This document shows, piece by piece, positions 23,283-30,968 of a stretch of DNA of 64,000 bases. The position numbers and the translations under genes are program-made. Position 1 is the first letter of the stretch. The number at the start of each line of letters is the position of its first letter. The notes below the pieces were generated by a model, which was not told where the DNA came from, searched no databases, and saw only the letters and a program-made list of their open reading frames with translations. The stretch lies in the NCBI RefSeq assembly GCF_900090315.1, contig NZ_FMHZ01000002.1, positions 5,674,501 through 5,738,500 on the forward strand, read 5' to 3'. The stretch is from Micromonospora citrea (GTDB taxonomy: Bacteria; Actinomycetota; Actinomycetes; Mycobacteriales; Micromonosporaceae).

Positions 23283-25156
23283 AGATCCTCGCGCTGGATC
23301 CCGTCCGCCACGGTGCCCCGCGCGTGGTCGCCGGGGACGTCGGGCTGGACCGTCCGGTGCGGTGGGTGCACGTGGCGGAGGTGCCCGACATCGCCACCCT
23401 GCTCGGGGGCGGTGAGCTGGTGCTCACCACCGGCATCGGGCTGCCCGCCGACGACGACGGGTTGCGCGCCTTCATCGGCGACCTGGCCGACGTCGGGGTC
23501 TCGGGGCTGGTCGTCGAGCTGGGCCGCCGGTACGTCAGCGGGGTCCCCCGGGTGATGGCGGCCGTCGCCGAGCGTCGTGGGCTGCCGCTGGTCGAGCTGC
23601 GCCGGGCCACCCCGTTCGTCCGCGTCACCGAGGCGGTGCACGCGCTGATCGTCGACGCCCAGCTCACCGAGCTGCGGGCGACCGAGGAGATCCACCAGCG
23701 CTTCACCGAGCTGTCGGTGGAGGGCGCCGGCCCCGGCGAGGTGGTCCGGCAGGCCGCCGAGCTGTCCGGCTGCCCCGTGGTGCTGGAGAACCTCTCCCGG
23801 CAGGTGCTCGCGTACGACCCGGCGGGGGAGAGCGCCGAGTTGCTGCTCGACGGCTGGGAACAGCACTCCCGCCGGATCCGGCCGGCGGGACGGACGGCGT
23901 ACGACGCGGACAGCGGCTGGCTGGTGACCACCGTGGGAGCCCGGGGCCACGACTGGGGCCGGCTGCTGCTGCGCTGGCCGGGCGGGGGCGACCTGGCCGC
24001 CGGCCGGCGCGTACCCGGCCCGGCGGCCGACGACGGGACGACCGTCACCGGCGCGCCGCCCACCCGGCTGACGATCCTGGTCGAGCGGGCCGCCTCGACG
24101 CTGGCCCTGGGCCGGCTGATCCGCCGCGACGCGGAGGGCCTGGAGCGGCAGATCCACCGTACGCTGCTGACGGCCCTGCTCGACCACTCCCGGCCGGTGG
24201 ACGAGGTGGCCCTGCGGGCCCGGGCGTTGGGGGTGGTGCTGGAGCGGCGGCACCTCGTCGGGGTGGTGGTCCGGCACCGGGCCGACGGCCCGGGGGAGGG
24301 CGGGGCGGCGGTCGAGTTCGCCGCTGCGGGTGAGCCCGGCGCGGACGGCCCGGAGGCGGGCCCGGCGCGGCTGCGGGACCTCGCCGAGGCGGTCGGTCAG
24401 GCGCTGCACGAGGCGAAGCTGGCCGGGCTGACCAGCGCCGTCGACGACCACGCCGTCGGCGTGCTGCTCGCCCTGCCGGAACCGGCGGCCGAGGAGCGGG
24501 CGCTGGCCGCGTTCGCCGCCGCGCTGCGTCGGGGCCGCCCCGACGCTCCGGGCCGCCGGGACGCTCCGGGCCGCCGGGACGTTCCGGGCCGCCGGGACGT
24601 TCCGGGCCGCCGGGACGTTCCGGGCCGCCGGGACGTTCCGGGCCGTTTCGACGGGGCGTCCCGGGCGGAGGCCCGGTGGGACGGCTCCGCCCGGCCGCCG
24701 TCGACGGGTGCCCTGCTGATCGCCGCCGGCTCCGGGGTGGGCAGCCTCCGGGAGGCCCGACGGTCGCTGATCGAGGCCCGGCAGGTCGCCGAGGCCGCCC
24801 GGCGGGACCGGCGGGACCTGCCGATCTTCCGGCTGCCGCACGTCGGGCTTGCCGGCCTGCTGCACCTGCTCCGCGACGAGCCCCGGCTGCAGACCTTCGT
24901 CGAGCGGGAACTCGGCGCCCTGCTGACGTACGACGCGCGACACCCCCGGGAGCAGCTGCTCGGCACCCTGCGGGCATACCTGGACGCCGGCCGGAACAAG
25001 TCCGCGGCGGCCGCCGCCGCGCACCTGTCCCGGCCGGCGTTCTACGAGCGGCTGGCCCGGATCGGCCGCGTCCTCGACGTCGACCTCGACTCGGTGGAGG
25101 CCTGCCTCTCCCTCCACGTCGCCCTGCTCGCCCTCGACGCCATCCGCACCCCCTGA
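23264..25156 (+). CDS. PucR family transcriptional regulator
   Basis: A 630-aa regulator. The N-terminal purine-catabolism domain (FPTVREILALDPVRHGAPRV, about residues 1-125) is followed by a central region resembling the CdaR GGDEF-like domain and a C-terminal helix-turn-helix of the PucR type (LRAYLDAGRNKSAAAAAAHL). The ligand is unknown. GTG at 23264 is 7 bases after TAGCGT; GTG at 23255 is the alternative. Residues about 427-462 are a run of six units of D-A/V-P-G-R-R encoded by an 18-bp tandem repeat, an odd insertion just ahead of the output domain. A strong hairpin follows the stop. Confidence 0.88.
   Translation: MFPTVREILALDPVRHGAPRVVAGDVGLDRPVRWVHVAEVPDIATLLGGGELVLTTGIGLPADDDGLRAFIGDLADVGVSGLVVELGRRYVSGVPRVMAAVAERRGLPLVELRRATPFVRVTEAVHALIVDAQLTELRATEEIHQRFTELSVEGAGPGEVVRQAAELSGCPVVLENLSRQVLAYDPAGESAELLLDGWEQHSRRIRPAGRTAYDADSGWLVTTVGARGHDWGRLLLRWPGGGDLAAGRRVPGPAADDGTTVTGAPPTRLTILVERAASTLALGRLIRRDAEGLERQIHRTLLTALLDHSRPVDEVALRARALGVVLERRHLVGVVVRHRADGPGEGGAAVEFAAAGEPGADGPEAGPARLRDLAEAVGQALHEAKLAGLTSAVDDHAVGVLLALPEPAAEERALAAFAAALRRGRPDAPGRRDAPGRRDVPGRRDVPGRRDVPGRRDVPGRFDGASRAEARWDGSARPPSTGALLIAAGSGVGSLREARRSLIEARQVAEAARRDRRDLPIFRLPHVGLAGLLHLLRDEPRLQTFVERELGALLTYDARHPREQLLGTLRAYLDAGRNKSAAAAAAHLSRPAFYERLARIGRVLDVDLDSVEACLSLHVALLALDAIRTP
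24542..24645 (+). repeat. 18-bp tandem repeat within pucR, about six copies
   Basis: Units GACGCTCCGGGCCGCCGG (two) and GACGTTCCGGGCCGCCGG (three, plus a partial copy) are adjacent and in frame. They encode repeats of D-A-P-G-R-R and D-V-P-G-R-R. The near identity of copies implies recent expansion and possible copy-number variation between strains. Confidence 0.92.
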
Positions 25157-25176: not shown

Positions 25177-25220
25177 CCCCGTCCCGGCCCCCGTCCCGGC
25201 CCCCGTCCCGGCCCCCGTCC
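25177..25220. repeat. 12-bp tandem repeat between pucR and murL
   Basis: CCCCGTCCCGGC is present in three full copies (25177, 25189, 25201) and a partial fourth. It leads directly into the hairpin at 25219-25283. Confidence 0.85.
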
Positions 25221-25341: not shown

Positions 25342-26691
25342 TTAGGTGAGGGTGGTCAGGGCCTTGGTGTAGGCGGGGGGGACGTGGTGCGGGCCGCCGG
25401 GGGTGAAGACGTCCGAGGTGGCCGCCGCCGACCAGGCCGTGGGCGGTACGGCGTCGACGAGGGCACGGACGACGGGGGCGTCGCGCCACTGCTCCTGCTC
25501 GGCGAGCAGGCTCAGCGCCACCACCGACTCCTCCACCTCGCCGACGCACTCGAACGGCTTGTGCCCGTCCACGCCGAGCAGCTCCCGGTAGCCGGGGATC
25601 TGCGAGGAGTCGGCGAGCAGGTCGCCGCCGAAGATGTGGGTGATCCGCTCGCGGGACATGAACGGCGCCATCGCCAGGAAGACGAAGCGGCACTTCGGGC
25701 AGTCGCGGCACCAGCGCTCGCTGGCGTCGCGCAGCTTGAACGCGGCGTTGCAGCTCGTCACCACGTCGTCGTAGCGGTCGATCTCGGCGAACAGTCGGGC
25801 GATGTGCAGCTCCGACAGCGAGCGCAGCAGGGAGAAGTACGGCTCGGTGAGCCCGGCGTGCTCGGCCAGCGCCGCCCGCAGCAGCCCCTCCGCCTCCACG
25901 CCCTTGGACCACTGGTGGTTGATCTCGTGGCCGTCCCAGACCAGGTTCGGGTCCGACGCCGACCGCTCGTTGGACATCACCACCGGGCCCAGCCCGTGCA
26001 GCACCGCCGTGGCGACCGCGATCAGCGAGTTGATCGCGGTGACCGGGATGTGGCCGTTGAGCGCGCCGGCGGCGTTCAGCTCGAACAGCACCGGGTCGAT
26101 GCGCCGCCGGGCGGCGAGCGGGGCGAGCCCGGACGCCTCGTTCACCGCGACGATCACGTGGTTGGGGTTGACCGAGAACGGCACCGGGTCGAGACCGGCC
26201 CGACGCAGCGCCTCCAGGCTGACGATGGAGTCCTTGCCGCCGCCGACGGCCGAGAGCGGACGCCGGTCCGAGTCGTCGTACACCCGGGGCGGCGACACCT
26301 CGCCGGCCGGCACCTCCGGTCGCAACCGGAGCACGTGCGGCAGCCGGTTGCGGTACGCGTACTCCGCCAGGCCCTTGGTGTAGACGGCGGTGACCAGCTC
26401 GGCGGCGGCCGCGCCCAGCGGCGCCGGCAGCACCAGGCGCGGCGGCGCGGCGGCCTTGTAGTAGCTGACGCCGGCGACGACGTGCAGCAGCTCCAGCACC
26501 CGGCCGAGGGTCGCCACGGTCTCGTCCGACGGCGGCGCGTCGGGCAGCGGGAGGGTGATCACCTCGGTGAACCGCTGCTCGCCGTCGGGGCCGGTGAGGG
26601 CGTAGTCGAAGAGCACCTCCCCGGTGGAGAGGTCGATCGAGTAGGACGGGAAGGTGAAGGCGTCCATCCGCCGCAGCTGCTCATTGGGCAC
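25342..26691 (-). CDS. murL: MurL, UDP-MurNAc-L-Ala-L-Glu epimerase
   Basis: A 449-aa protein that I recognise as MurL, which turns UDP-MurNAc-L-Ala-L-Glu into the D-Glu form in an ATP-dependent reaction. Together with MurD2 it replaces glutamate racemase plus standard MurD. A PP-loop-like motif GGGKDS lies at residues 150-155 and a cysteine cluster C-x2-C-x2-C at 328-334 (RWCRDCPKC). NPNHVIVAVNEASGL and MSNERSASDPNLVWDGHEIN are further family landmarks. GTG at 26691 is 5 bases after TAGTAT (26697-26702), so the transcript is probably leaderless. murD2 diverges 87 bases away. It is cytosolic. Confidence 0.88.
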   Translation of the reverse strand: MPNEQLRRMDAFTFPSYSIDLSTGEVLFDYALTGPDGEQRFTEVITLPLPDAPPSDETVATLGRVLELLHVVAGVSYYKAAAPPRLVLPAPLGAAAAELVTAVYTKGLAEYAYRNRLPHVLRLRPEVPAGEVSPPRVYDDSDRRPLSAVGGGKDSIVSLEALRRAGLDPVPFSVNPNHVIVAVNEASGLAPLAARRRIDPVLFELNAAGALNGHIPVTAINSLIAVATAVLHGLGPVVMSNERSASDPNLVWDGHEINHQWSKGVEAEGLLRAALAEHAGLTEPYFSLLRSLSELHIARLFAEIDRYDDVVTSCNAAFKLRDASERWCRDCPKCRFVFLAMAPFMSRERITHIFGGDLLADSSQIPGYRELLGVDGHKPFECVGEVEESVVALSLLAEQEQWRDAPVVRALVDAVPPTAWSAAATSDVFTPGGPHHVPPAYTKALTTLT

Positions 26692-26696
26692 ACGCC

Positions 26697-26702
26697 ATAC
26701 TA
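26697..26702 (-). promoter_or_regulatory. -10 hexamer of murL
   Basis: TAGTAT on the minus strand ends 5 bases before the murL GTG. It lies in the 87-base gap shared with the divergent murD2 gene, so both promoters must overlap or lie back to back here. Confidence 0.6.
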
Positions 26703-26778
26703 GGCCCTGGTTCGTCCGGCGTGTCCGGCTGTGCCGGACGTGCCTGTGCCCCGCCGTCGACATCCCCGAGGAGAACCA

Positions 26779-28128
26779 GTGCGCCTGTCTGACCTGCGCG
26801 GACGTGCCGTCGCCGTCTGGGGGGCCGGCCGGGAGGGCCGGGCCGCGGTGACCGCGATCGCCGCGCACGGCCCGGCCGACCTGGTCGCCGTCGACGACAG
26901 CGCCAACTTCCTCAGCCTGCCCTGGGAGGGGCCGCTGGCCGAGGCGGCGCCGCTGGTCACCGGCGAGGAGGGCTTCGCCCGGCTGGCCGCCGCCGACGTG
27001 GTGGTCCGCTCGCCCGGCGTGCCGCAGACCCACCCGTGGCTGGTGGAGCTGCGCCGGCGCGGCGTGACCGTCACCCAGGGCACGGCCCTGTGGATGGCCG
27101 ACCACGCCGACCGCACCGTCGGCGTCACCGGCAGCAAGGGCAAGAGCACCACCTCCAGCCTGATCAGCCACCTGCTCGCCGCCGTGGACCGGCCGAACGT
27201 CTTCGGCGGCAACATCGGCGTGCCGACGCTGGACCTGCCGGAGGCGGAGCTGTACGTGCTGGAGCTCTCCAGCTACCAGTGCAGCGACCTGACGGACTCG
27301 CCGCGCGTGGCGGTGGTCACCTCGCTCTTCCCCGAGCACCTCGACGCGCACGGCGGCGAGCGCGAGTACTACCGCGACAAGCTCAACCTGCTGGCGCACG
27401 GCCCGCGCACCGTCGTGGTCAACGGCGCCGACCCGCGGCTCGCCCTCGAACTGGGCGACCGCGCGGCGGTACGCGCCGGCCTGCCGGACACCGTCCACGT
27501 GGCCGGCGGCGCGGACGGCACGCCCTGGTTCCACCTCGCCGACCAGCCGCTCTTCCCGCGCGCGGTCCTGCCGCTGGTCGGCCGGCACAACGAGGGCAAC
27601 CTCTGCGTCGCCCTCGCCGTGCTCGACGCGCTGGGCGTCGACGTGGTGGCCCGCAAGGACACCCTGGCCGTGGCGGTCGCCGAGTTCCAGGGGCTGGCGC
27701 ACCGGCTCACCGAGATCGCCGACCCGTCCGGCCTGACCTTCGTCGACGACACCCTCGCCACCAGCCCGTACGCGGCCATGCACGCCATCGACGCGTACGA
27801 GGGACGGCCGTTGACGGTGATCGTCGGCGGCACGGACCGGGGCCTAGACTACGCGCCGCTGCGCGAGCACCTCGCGGAGCGCGAGATCACCGTGCTCGGC
27901 ATCCCCGACAGCGGCGCCCGGATCGTCGAGGCGCTCGCGGGGCTGCCCAAGGTGCGCGCCGAGGTGGTCGACGACCTGGTCGCCGCCGTCCGGCGGGCCC
28001 GCGAGCTGACCCCGGCCGACGGCGTGGTGCTGCTCTCCCCGGCCGCGCCCAGCTACGGGCGGTTCCGCAACTTCGAGCACCGCTCCGAGGTCTTCGCCCA
28101 AGCCGTCCGCGACACCGCGTCCGGCTGA
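26779..28128 (+). CDS. murD2: MurD2, UDP-MurNAc-L-Ala-L-glutamate ligase
   Basis: A 449-aa Mur ligase. The ATP loop GSKGKST is at residues 118-124, followed by LELSSYQCSDL, the metal-binding FPEHLDAHGG, DKLNLL, and the C-terminal VDDTLATSPYAAM. In ordinary MurD the added residue is D-glutamate; because murL is the divergent neighbour, this is expected to be the MurD2 type that adds L-glutamate. GTG at 26779 has GAGGAG 5 bases upstream. It converges with the RING-protein gene 25 bases after its stop. Whether the genome also holds a classical murD or murI cannot be seen here. Confidence 0.88.
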   Translation: MRLSDLRGRAVAVWGAGREGRAAVTAIAAHGPADLVAVDDSANFLSLPWEGPLAEAAPLVTGEEGFARLAAADVVVRSPGVPQTHPWLVELRRRGVTVTQGTALWMADHADRTVGVTGSKGKSTTSSLISHLLAAVDRPNVFGGNIGVPTLDLPEAELYVLELSSYQCSDLTDSPRVAVVTSLFPEHLDAHGGEREYYRDKLNLLAHGPRTVVVNGADPRLALELGDRAAVRAGLPDTVHVAGGADGTPWFHLADQPLFPRAVLPLVGRHNEGNLCVALAVLDALGVDVVARKDTLAVAVAEFQGLAHRLTEIADPSGLTFVDDTLATSPYAAMHAIDAYEGRPLTVIVGGTDRGLDYAPLREHLAEREITVLGIPDSGARIVEALAGLPKVRAEVVDDLVAAVRRARELTPADGVVLLSPAAPSYGRFRNFEHRSEVFAQAVRDTASG

Positions 28129-28153: not shown

Positions 28154-30748
28154 TCAGCCGCCGGGCGCGAGGCCGGCGATCAGGTCGGCGGCGTCCAGCA
28201 GCCGCACCCGGTCGCCGTCCAGGTCGCCTCGGTACAGCGCGTACGCCTGCGCCCCCTCCGCCAGCGGCAGGTCACCGCGCACCAGCGCGGCGAACGCCGG
28301 CGCGGCGGTCGGGACGTCGCGCGGGTCGGTGGGGCCCAGCGCGACGAGCCGGCCGGCGAACGCCGCGTCGCCCTCGCCGGGCTCGCGCCGATAGGCCGAG
28401 GTCGCGCCGTCGCGGTGCCGGACCACGACCGTCCCGGCCCGGGCGGCGGCGTGCCAGCACGCCAGCTCCCAGAGGCTCACCCGCCGTCCGGCCGCGAAGT
28501 GTCCGTCGGCCGCGGCGCTGAGCCGGGCGAGCGTACGCGAGTACCGGGCCACCGAGTGGTAGCTGCCCGTGCCGGTCATCGTGGCGTCGATCCAGCGCAG
28601 CGTCCCGAGGTGGAGGTCGACGACGAGCGGGGTGGCCGCCTTGACCTGGCCGGTGAGGTCGAAGCGCTGCTCGACGGCCTTCGGCTCGAACGGCCCGCCC
28701 CGCCCGGGGTCGCCCAGGAGACCGGCGAACGCGTCGGTCATCGCGTCGAACGGCACGTTGTTGTAGCTGAACACCACCATCGCGACGTACCGGATCCCGC
28801 GCCCGCGCAGCGCCGCCACGTCGAGGTCGACGAACTCGCTCGCCCCCAGCGGCGCCGGCGCGGAGGTCAGGTCGCCGGAGTGCACGGCGGCGTCGTGGAA
28901 GCGCAGCCGGGTGTAGTCGCACCAGCCGGCGAACCGGCCGTCGTCGGCGACCATCGCGACGGAGAGGTCGAGGTCGACCCGGGTGCCGGTCGGCTCGGTC
29001 CAGTGCAGGAAGAGCCGGACCCGCCGCCCCGGCGGCAACGGCTGGCTGCTGCCCCGGGGCAGGCGGACCAGGGCGGCCGAGGCGGTACGTTCGGCGAACG
29101 GGGCGGTGAGGTCGGCCAGTCCGGCGTCGACGACGGCGACCTCGACGCCGGGCAGCAGCCCGGCGCGTCTGCGCAGCTCGCCGGTGAGCACCTCGTCCAG
29201 CGCGCCGCCCAGGTCGGCCGGCAACCGCGGCCGCCGGTCCGGCTCAGCCCAGAGCCGGGCCCGCCCGCCGCGCGGGAAGTACAACCGGGACACCGCCGGC
29301 CACGTCGCGGCGCGGACCGCGCCCACGGCGGCCACCAGCACCCCCGGTGCGACGGCGCCCGCGACGGCCGCCACCGTGTCGAGCAGGTGTCGCGGGTCGT
29401 CGACGCGTGCGGCCAGCGCCACCACCCGGCGCAGCAGCTCACCGGGGCGACCGGCGAGCAGCCGGACGGCGGTCGGCGCGTCGCCGGCGCGCAGCGCCTC
29501 CTCCACCCGGGTGCCCCAGGACGCGGCGCGCAGCCGGCCGTCCTCGATCCGCAGCAGCGGCGCGTGCGTGGCAGCCGCCGCCCGCAGCAGCCGGCCCAGC
29601 GCGGTGGCGTCGTCGACCGGCGTGCCGCGCAGCACCGCGAACGCGGCCGCGGCGCGCGGGTGCCGGTCGGGCCGCTCGAACGGGTGCAGCGGCTCCGCCG
29701 CGTGCAGCCAGCGGGACCGGTGGCGCAGCAGATCGTCCACCAGGAGCCCCGGGTCGAGGGCGTCCAGGCGGGCGAGCAGCGCCCGGCGCAGCGGACGGGG
29801 CAGGGACCGGTGCCGCTTCGGCGGCGCGACCAGCCCCGGGTCGCCGCCGTGCAGGGCGTACAGCAGGCGCAGCGCGTCGGTCGCGGAGGTGACGTGGCGG
29901 TCGAGCAGCTCCGTCGTCCGCGCCGCGGTGAGCGGGCCGGCGAGGAGCCGGGCCAGCACCAGCGCCCGGGTCTCCCGGACCGGGATGTCCGGCAGCCAGG
30001 CCGGGTCGGCGGTGCCGACCCGGTCGAGCAGGACCGCCAGATCGGCCCGGTCCACCGGGGACAGCGGCGTGCGCCGGGCCAGCAGCGCCGCGAGCGTCTC
30101 GTGGGCGGCCCGCTCGACGTCCCCGGCGAGTTCCAGCACCGCGGCGCGCCGGGGCATGGGCAGGACGGGACCGCCGTGCGGTCGGGCGGCCGGGCTGAGG
30201 AACGGCCCGTCCCCGGTCAGCCGGCGGTGGCACAGCGGGCAGCCCGTGTAACCGTCGTCCCAGCAGGCCGTGCAGACCAGGTGCGCGCACGGCGACACCG
30301 GCCCGACCGTGCCCACCCGCCCGCACAGCACGCACGGCTGTGCCGGCTCCTGGAGGAGCAGCGTGAACACCCGGCGTACGTAGAGCTCGTCGGTGTCGGC
30401 CGGCACACGACGTGGGAAGTCCCGGAACAGGGGCACGTGCGGTGTGTGCGCGCCGACCGCCGACTCCAGCACCGCCAGCAGCGCCAGGCCGGTGACGGCG
30501 AGCCGGTCGGCGGGCAGCCCGGCCAGCGCGGCGCGCAGCCGCGGCCCGACCTGCCAGCCCAGCGCCAGCGCGTCGGCCTCCAGTGCCCGCAGCCCGGTGT
30601 CGACGGCCGCCGGCCGCCGGCCGGCCCGCTTGGCCTTGCGACCGCCGCCGAGCAGGCCCGCCGCGACGAGCCCCGAGCGCCGCACCAGAGTGACCGCGAG
30701 CGGATGCACCGCCGCGCCGGCCGCCTGGACCGTGAGCTGGGTCGCCAC
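28154..30748 (-). CDS. RING-finger protein of the MXAN_6230/SCO0854 type
   Basis: A large protein (864 aa from GTG 30748; ATG 30754 adds two residues). Near residue 140 it has a complete C3HC4 RING-like zinc site: C-x2-C-x11-C-x-H-x2-C-x2-C-x7-C-x2-C, starting CVLCGRVG. A long helical Arg/Ala/Leu-rich middle follows. The C-terminal 250 residues are beta-rich (FVDLDVAALRGRGIRYVAM, VVFSYNNVPF, LVVDLHLGTLRWID) and remind me of TerD-like stress proteins. I recall a family named after MXAN_6230/SCO0854 with this layout. GGAGG lies 6 bases before the GTG. The role is unknown; a ubiquitin-ligase activity should not be assumed. Confidence 0.72.
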   Translation of the reverse strand: MATQLTVQAAGAAVHPLAVTLVRRSGLVAAGLLGGGRKAKRAGRRPAAVDTGLRALEADALALGWQVGPRLRAALAGLPADRLAVTGLALLAVLESAVGAHTPHVPLFRDFPRRVPADTDELYVRRVFTLLLQEPAQPCVLCGRVGTVGPVSPCAHLVCTACWDDGYTGCPLCHRRLTGDGPFLSPAARPHGGPVLPMPRRAAVLELAGDVERAAHETLAALLARRTPLSPVDRADLAVLLDRVGTADPAWLPDIPVRETRALVLARLLAGPLTAARTTELLDRHVTSATDALRLLYALHGGDPGLVAPPKRHRSLPRPLRRALLARLDALDPGLLVDDLLRHRSRWLHAAEPLHPFERPDRHPRAAAAFAVLRGTPVDDATALGRLLRAAAATHAPLLRIEDGRLRAASWGTRVEEALRAGDAPTAVRLLAGRPGELLRRVVALAARVDDPRHLLDTVAAVAGAVAPGVLVAAVGAVRAATWPAVSRLYFPRGGRARLWAEPDRRPRLPADLGGALDEVLTGELRRRAGLLPGVEVAVVDAGLADLTAPFAERTASAALVRLPRGSSQPLPPGRRVRLFLHWTEPTGTRVDLDLSVAMVADDGRFAGWCDYTRLRFHDAAVHSGDLTSAPAPLGASEFVDLDVAALRGRGIRYVAMVVFSYNNVPFDAMTDAFAGLLGDPGRGGPFEPKAVEQRFDLTGQVKAATPLVVDLHLGTLRWIDATMTGTGSYHSVARYSRTLARLSAAADGHFAAGRRVSLWELACWHAAARAGTVVVRHRDGATSAYRREPGEGDAAFAGRLVALGPTDPRDVPTAAPAFAALVRGDLPLAEGAQAYALYRGDLDGDRVRLLDAADLIAGLAPGG

Positions 30749-30968
30749 CGCCATCCTCCCCGAGAGACGCAGAACGGCGAGGGCGGAGATCGGGCGCGCT
30801 AGCAGGTCACCAAGACAGGATGAGAAGGAAGCACGCCCAGGAGCCGCCCTCGCCGTGCCGCGAAGGCTACCGGCCGGCCCGTGGCCGCCGCAGCCCGGTT
30901 TCCGCGCGCCGCCCGTCGGTCCGGCACCCCGCCCCTGGCTCCGCCACCGCCGGGGCGGCCGGCCCGGT

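Follow-up and report, generated by a model that had tools for sequence, protein, structure and literature searches.

The locus described here raises three questions: how Micromonospora citrea obtains the D-glutamate (D-Glu) of its cell wall, how the two genes concerned are expressed, and how one of their products, MurL, makes use of ATP. We analysed a stretch of 64,000 nucleotides (the window), to which all positions refer. On the minus strand murL extends from a GTG at 26691-26689 to 25342 (25342-26691), and on the plus strand murD2 extends from a GTG at 26779-26781 to 28128 (26779-28128). DNA and open frames confirm the head-to-head arrangement with 87 bases between the starts that had been predicted at these coordinates. 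The surroundings contain, convergent with murD2, a gene (28154-30754, minus strand) whose 866-aa product bears a RING finger of the prokaryotic type (PF14447), an 18-bp repeat of 6.3 copies encoding PGRRDV-like units within a PucR-family regulator gene (24532-24645) and, downstream of this regulator gene, a 12-bp repeat of 3.7 copies (25177-25220).

The MurD2/MurL pathway was reportedly presented by Feng et al. in 2017. In Xanthomonas oryzae, D-Glu is made on the wall precursor by MurD2 and MurL (XOO_1320/XOO_1319), and the same holds for Micromonospora and Salinispora; Micromonospora sp. ATCC 39149 uses the pathway (PMC8788868). We consider it highly probable that the pair in the window makes D-Glu on the peptidoglycan precursor, that the two genes share a -10 element and that MurL is a QueC/QatC-like PP-loop ATP pyrophosphatase acting by alpha-carboxylate adenylation. 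Gene content, family identity, specificity residues and mutual exclusion with glutamate racemase (MurI) are observed directly in this study. To a pathway already known in the genus Micromonospora, the shared promoter architecture and the MurL fold are added here, both as predictions.

Predicted fold and chemistry of MurL

The original prediction had assigned both proteins to their families, and the models NF041275 for MurL and TIGR01087 for MurD2 bear this out. Window MurL matches NF041275, a model named for Xanthomonadales, over residues 8-446 with 412.7 bits (E 1.4e-123), leaving its curated cut-off of 700 unreached. All 39 aligned MurL sequences (39/39) match the model at E up to 10, and its cut-off is reached in 0 of the 18 matching genomes of a phylum sample. 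MurD2 scores 291.5 bits with TIGR01087 (murD), over the cut-off of 211.95. The closest named relatives of window MurL belong to Micromonospora, with best identities of 96-98%. Weak second MurL matches are present in the genomes G028 and G144.

MurL carries a PP-loop-like GGGKDS at residues 150-155. GGGxDS is invariant in the 39 aligned sequences, a Gly replacing the first Ser of SGGxDS, and it is followed by C314-x13-C328xxC331xxC334, whose four Cys are likewise invariant in the 39. Loop and four-Cys site come in the same order in QueC, from which MurL differs by the Gly in the loop and by a Cys spacing of 13 instead of the 8 of the QueC-type zinc site (C-x8-CxxCxxC). Cys 382, His 214 and His 259 are also invariant in the 39 sequences. 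The AF2 model of window MurL (pLDDT 95.1) has a PP-loop (Rossmann-like) fold that matches QatC and QueC; the predicted fold is thus shared with the QueC-like PP-loop enzymes QueC, Cap9 and QatC (3bl5, 9nto, 9y01). In the match to QatC, 315 residues are aligned over model positions 8-397, and the matches to Cap9 and QueC comprise 168-198 aligned residues, i.e. the PP-loop part. Since the QatC match exceeds the PP-loop part alone, the N-terminal part of the MurL model seems to be included in it.

Unlike the QueC-like enzymes, MurL acts on a glycopeptide and not on a deazaguanine, and window MurL does not match PF06508 (QueC) at E up to 1; among the 39 MurLs the best E is 0.079, with matches in 2/39. 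Between MurL and QatC there is no direct sequence signal: the MurL profile matches the QatC profile (60 of 120 listed proteins aligned, plus 4 loci) at 0.6%, no better than 25 shuffles. Direct sequence kinship of the two is not supported, and the link is by fold only. The QueC profile is matched by both the MurL and the QatC profiles (85% and 98.8%, respectively); the QueC and TilS alignments contained 23 QueC and 21 TilS proteins from 25 fetched loci each. A PDB sequence search with MurL gave nothing significant (best single-sequence E 0.43; best profile match TtuA, E 0.019), and PADLOC gave no match for window MurL and, among its relatives, one weak match to LmuB (E 0.013, 2/39). No published PP-loop or QatC link for MurL was found in a search of the freely accessible literature.

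Adenylate formation is how QueC, Cap9 and argininosuccinate synthase activate a carboxylate or ureido oxygen. As a QueC/QatC-like PP-loop ATP pyrophosphatase, MurL would adenylate the alpha-carboxylate of Glu. This would acidify the alpha-carbon, and loss of PPi together with hydrolysis of the adenylate would render the inversion one-way. The MurL reaction requires one equivalent of ATP and forms AMP, and adenylation of the alpha-carboxylate is the hypothesis of the discoverers of MurL, as cited in a review that itself calls the mechanism unclear (PMC8788868). We note that the mechanism has been unsettled so far because no domain had been recognised. The alternative that survives best, although we regard it as rather unlikely, is that MurL shares the PP-loop fold without adenylating the alpha-carboxylate: ATP would drive another step, such as gamma-carboxylate activation or a conformational gate, and plain two-base chemistry would bring about epimerisation. 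The fold leaves the attacked bond unfixed, the review calls the mechanism unclear, and bases could be provided by Cys 382, His 214 and His 259, all invariant; AMP as product and the need for one ATP equivalent argue against it, as does the activation of the substrate as an adenylate by the PP-loop relatives among the fold matches. Adenylation of the alpha-carboxylate is the reading that we prefer.

The murL-murD2 junction and gene order

The intergenic region of 87 bp (26692-26778) is a predicted bidirectional promoter. A predicted murL -10 box, TAGTAT (26697-26702, minus strand), stands 5 nt before the GTG, and a predicted murD2 -10 box, CATACT (26696-26701, plus strand), overlaps it; as read from the sequence, -11A and -7T overlap reciprocally on the two strands at 26697 and 26701. 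The murD2 Shine-Dalgarno sequence GAGGAG (26768-26773, plus strand) is located 5 nt before the GTG, and in an alignment of 65 junctions its GGAG columns show an identity of at least 97%. The murD2 frame is open further upstream, as far as a GTG at 26731; the start at 26779 is favoured because the Shine-Dalgarno sequence is found there and the start is kept in relatives. The murL start codon is supported from outside by the Shine-Dalgarno-bearing relatives L038, L129 and L131, which use the matching codon.

For comparison, 99 rows of divergent junctions under 200 nt, with the window included and the repeat loci from G003 and from the own genome omitted, were collapsed to 87 distinct junctions, most of them from Micromonospora and hence not independent. 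TAGTAT or TATTAT lies exactly 5 nt before the murL start, with no Shine-Dalgarno sequence, in 83 of the 87; three others have the box 30-31 nt upstream plus a Shine-Dalgarno sequence, and one has it 18 nt upstream. The pattern [CA]ATA[CT]TA[AG] of the patch is present in 86/87 junctions and in 27/27 further junction loci, the single exception, L079, having CATAATAG instead. Within the 64-kb window this 8-mer pattern is found a single time, and the 19.9-kb dcw stretch lacks it. Given the spacing kept in 83/87 junctions and the single occurrence in the window, chance does not account for the box. The genus Actinoplanes belongs to the same family as Micromonospora. For Actinoplanes sp. SE50/110, the available part of one study gives the -10 motif TAnnnT upstream of 98% of examined starts and leaderless transcripts for 14% of genes (PMC7682106). 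Leaderless genes are characterised, in the accessible portion of another, by TANNNT at about 12 bp before the start and by the absence of a Shine-Dalgarno sequence (PMC3160421); in murL, the first T of TANNNT is 11 bp upstream of the start and a Shine-Dalgarno sequence is absent.

One near-symmetric -10 element would serve transcription of both murL and murD2, giving a murL mRNA without leader and a murD2 leader of about 70 nt. Symmetric -10 bidirectional promoters were reportedly described by Warman et al. in 2021. As far as the available text of PMC10268837 goes, such promoters have two divergent starts 7-25 bp apart, usually 18 bp, with -11A and -7T coinciding reciprocally. The window resembles them in its overlapping boxes, reciprocal -11A/-7T and divergent genes, and its predicted starts lie about 16-18 bp apart. 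In contrast to the promoters described there, the junction type is conserved across genera of one family, serves a cell-wall pair and has one or both mRNAs apparently leaderless, as predicted. In L125 the intergenic region measures 16 bp, and only 6 nt lie between the patch and the murD2 GTG; in L126, where murD2 starts with ATG, the distance is 7 nt. Judged by this spacing, murD2 appears to be leaderless too in both loci. A back-to-back promoter, a leaderless murL start and a murD2 start with a ribosome site had been proposed, and all three hold as predictions, given the conserved patch, the box 5 nt off without Shine-Dalgarno sequence in 83/87 junctions and GAGGAG before the murD2 GTG.

A block downstream of the patch, CCCTGGTTCGTCC (26704-26717), hardly varies among the 65 Micromonospora-type junctions that were aligned; the conservation extends over Micromonospora and Salinispora, and by eye the block is missing in other genera. 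A regulatory hairpin in the murD2 leader was considered and rejected (z -0.8; CTGGTTC/GAACCAG pairing lost in relatives by eye), and Rfam gave no match in the window at gathering scores. A promoter study of the murL-murD2 pair was not found among freely accessible papers.

Gene order varies. With duplicate genomes counted, the genes are divergent at 100 loci and tandem (murL-murD2) at 19, the latter being 16 loci outside the family and three of three family genera. Whereas the window pair is divergent with a predicted shared promoter, all 16 actinobacterial MurL loci outside the family are tandem or fused; a natural fusion is the single 861-aa MurL-MurD2 frame at L152:100-2682 (minus strand), whose host is a low-GC actinobacterium (33% GC in the locus). 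Within Micromonospora, an insertion of 1.7-1.9 kb parts murL from murD2 in four distinct genomes (L188, L189, L190, L056 and L087, with L190 and L087 from one genome). On the murL side, these loci retain the -10 box and the predicted leaderless start; on the murD2 side, the TA-rich patch is a different one. The insertions of L188 and L056, the two scanned, contain a TnpB-type gene with OrfB_IS605 and Cas12f1-like TNB domains, which in L188 stops some 60 bp short of the murL -10 box; the sequence upstream of murL in L074 resembles that of the insertion loci. Moreover, among the matches listed, the best MurD match lies elsewhere in 23 of the 79 MurL genomes of the family, in 7 of these on another contig only, so that it may still be linked. 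That a shared promoter is needed for enzyme balance is not borne out by these insertion-split and unlinked cases and by the tandem or fused loci outside the family. With split, tandem, fused and unlinked arrangements on record, expression of both genes from a single promoter would be widespread in the family but is not a requirement.

Somewhat less probable again than two-base chemistry is a pair of separate promoters, with murD2 transcribed from within murL and the patch serving murL only. No good -35 box was seen by eye in either direction, which for murD2 is in line with such an arrangement, as are the different murD2 patch beside the kept murL TAGTAT and 5-nt spacer at the insertion loci and the 7/87 junctions in which another 8-mer, and not the patch as in the other 80, is the most AT-rich. 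However, an alternative plus-strand TANNNT is found in just 2/87, the patch almost adjoins murD2 in L125 and L126, and -11A and -7T are reciprocal as in the bidirectional promoters of the available part of PMC10268837. We thus favour the single shared element.

MurD2, glutamate racemase and the source of D-Glu

The own genome (7.2 Mb, 99.99% complete) gave no match to MurI and a single MurD over the cut-off, i.e. window MurD2, in agreement with the predicted bypass of the racemase. Its dcw cluster runs murE-murF-mraY-ftsW-murG-murC, with no murD remnant in the mraY-ftsW gap of about 148 bp. A GC-rich inverted repeat is seen by eye in this gap, the expected murD site (L008:11022-11168). A D-amino-acid aminotransferase is not indicated in the own genome, where the cut-off is 277 and two matches score 62 and 41 bits.

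Of 150 Micromonosporaceae genomes taken in one draw, 79 had MurL only, 70 had MurI over the cut-off only, none had both and one, 77% complete, had neither (Fisher p 1e-42, shared ancestry ignored). Partial racemase matches of 20-26 bits, below the cut-off, occur in 5 of the 79 MurL genomes, and a single genus contains both states (G040 with MurL, G062 with MurI). The phylum sample contains MurL in 18 of its 296 genomes, including the own genome and one of the same genus; MurI over the cut-off is found in 0 of the 16 MurL genomes outside the family, two of which have matches of 22-26 bits.

Window MurD2 bears the signature E186, L326, R354, P424 and Y426, with E186, R354, P424 and Y426 at the positions of E. 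coli D182, K348, A414 and L416; the marks of X. oryzae MurD2 are E197, R358, P433 and F435 (PMC8788868). In 34/34 MurDs of MurL genomes, the K348 position is Arg and the K319 position is Leu or Ile, while Lys stands at both in E. coli and in 22/22 MurDs from family members that have MurI. Arg at 348 was named earlier for X. oryzae, and the 319 site is of interest because K319T reportedly lets E. coli MurD accept L-Glu (PMC8788868). Position 182 is Glu in 21/34, Asp in 12/34 and Cys in 1/34, so that the equivalent of X. oryzae E197 is not universal. Five unlinked MurDs of MurL genomes have the same marks. The counts omit L147, which is a fragment, L191, L192, L194 and L196 as second copies, L155, and the close Micromonospora rows L188-L190, which bear identical marks; 15 linked family rows were selected out of about 100 divergent and three tandem loci, and the 70 MurI genomes supplied the 22 canonical MurDs. 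A tree of 57 MurDs, in which E. coli and L152 are flagged as long, unsure rows, separates the 34 MurD2s from the 22 canonical MurDs and E. coli by a 100/99 branch. With the 34 MurD2s on one side of this branch, window MurD2 appears unlike a converted dcw MurD of the family, an origin that was considered and rejected.

The pair thus resembles that of X. oryzae in gene content, absence of MurI and the MurD2 pattern E/R/P/aromatic, and comes from the same genus as the known Micromonospora users of the pathway. Its D-Glu would arise on the peptidoglycan precursor, after attachment of Glu. That MurD2 is instead an ordinary D-Glu ligase, supplied by an unrecognised racemase or the medium, with MurL doing something else, is very improbable: the two aminotransferase matches below the cut-off speak for it, but MurD2 carries the MurD2 marks, the MurL/MurI exclusion is exact in 150 genomes, and the pairs of a Micromonospora sp. 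and S. tropica were confirmed in vitro (PMC8788868), window MurL being 92% identical to MurL of Micromonospora sp. ATCC 39149 and 85% to that of S. tropica.

Implications for MurL and its locus

The junction is a small natural system on which bidirectional promoters and leaderless translation can be tested at a cell-wall locus, with leaderless, leadered, insertion-split, tandem and fused variants at hand in nature. For MurL, the PP-loop fold, the ATP site and the four-Cys site would explain the use of ATP, the release of AMP and the one-way epimerisation, and they name residues. Tentatively, and with slightly more doubt than confidence, we see in MurL a further QueC-like PP-loop line, an acyl-adenylating epimerase with a QatC-like two-domain layout, whose family pair shares a symmetric -10 box. 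If this is true, MurL stands beside PP-loop enzymes of phage defence and nucleoside synthesis, the carbon next to a carboxylate is inverted through activation of that carboxylate by ATP, and activation of a peptide at its carboxyl end becomes an idea that can be tested for QatC too.
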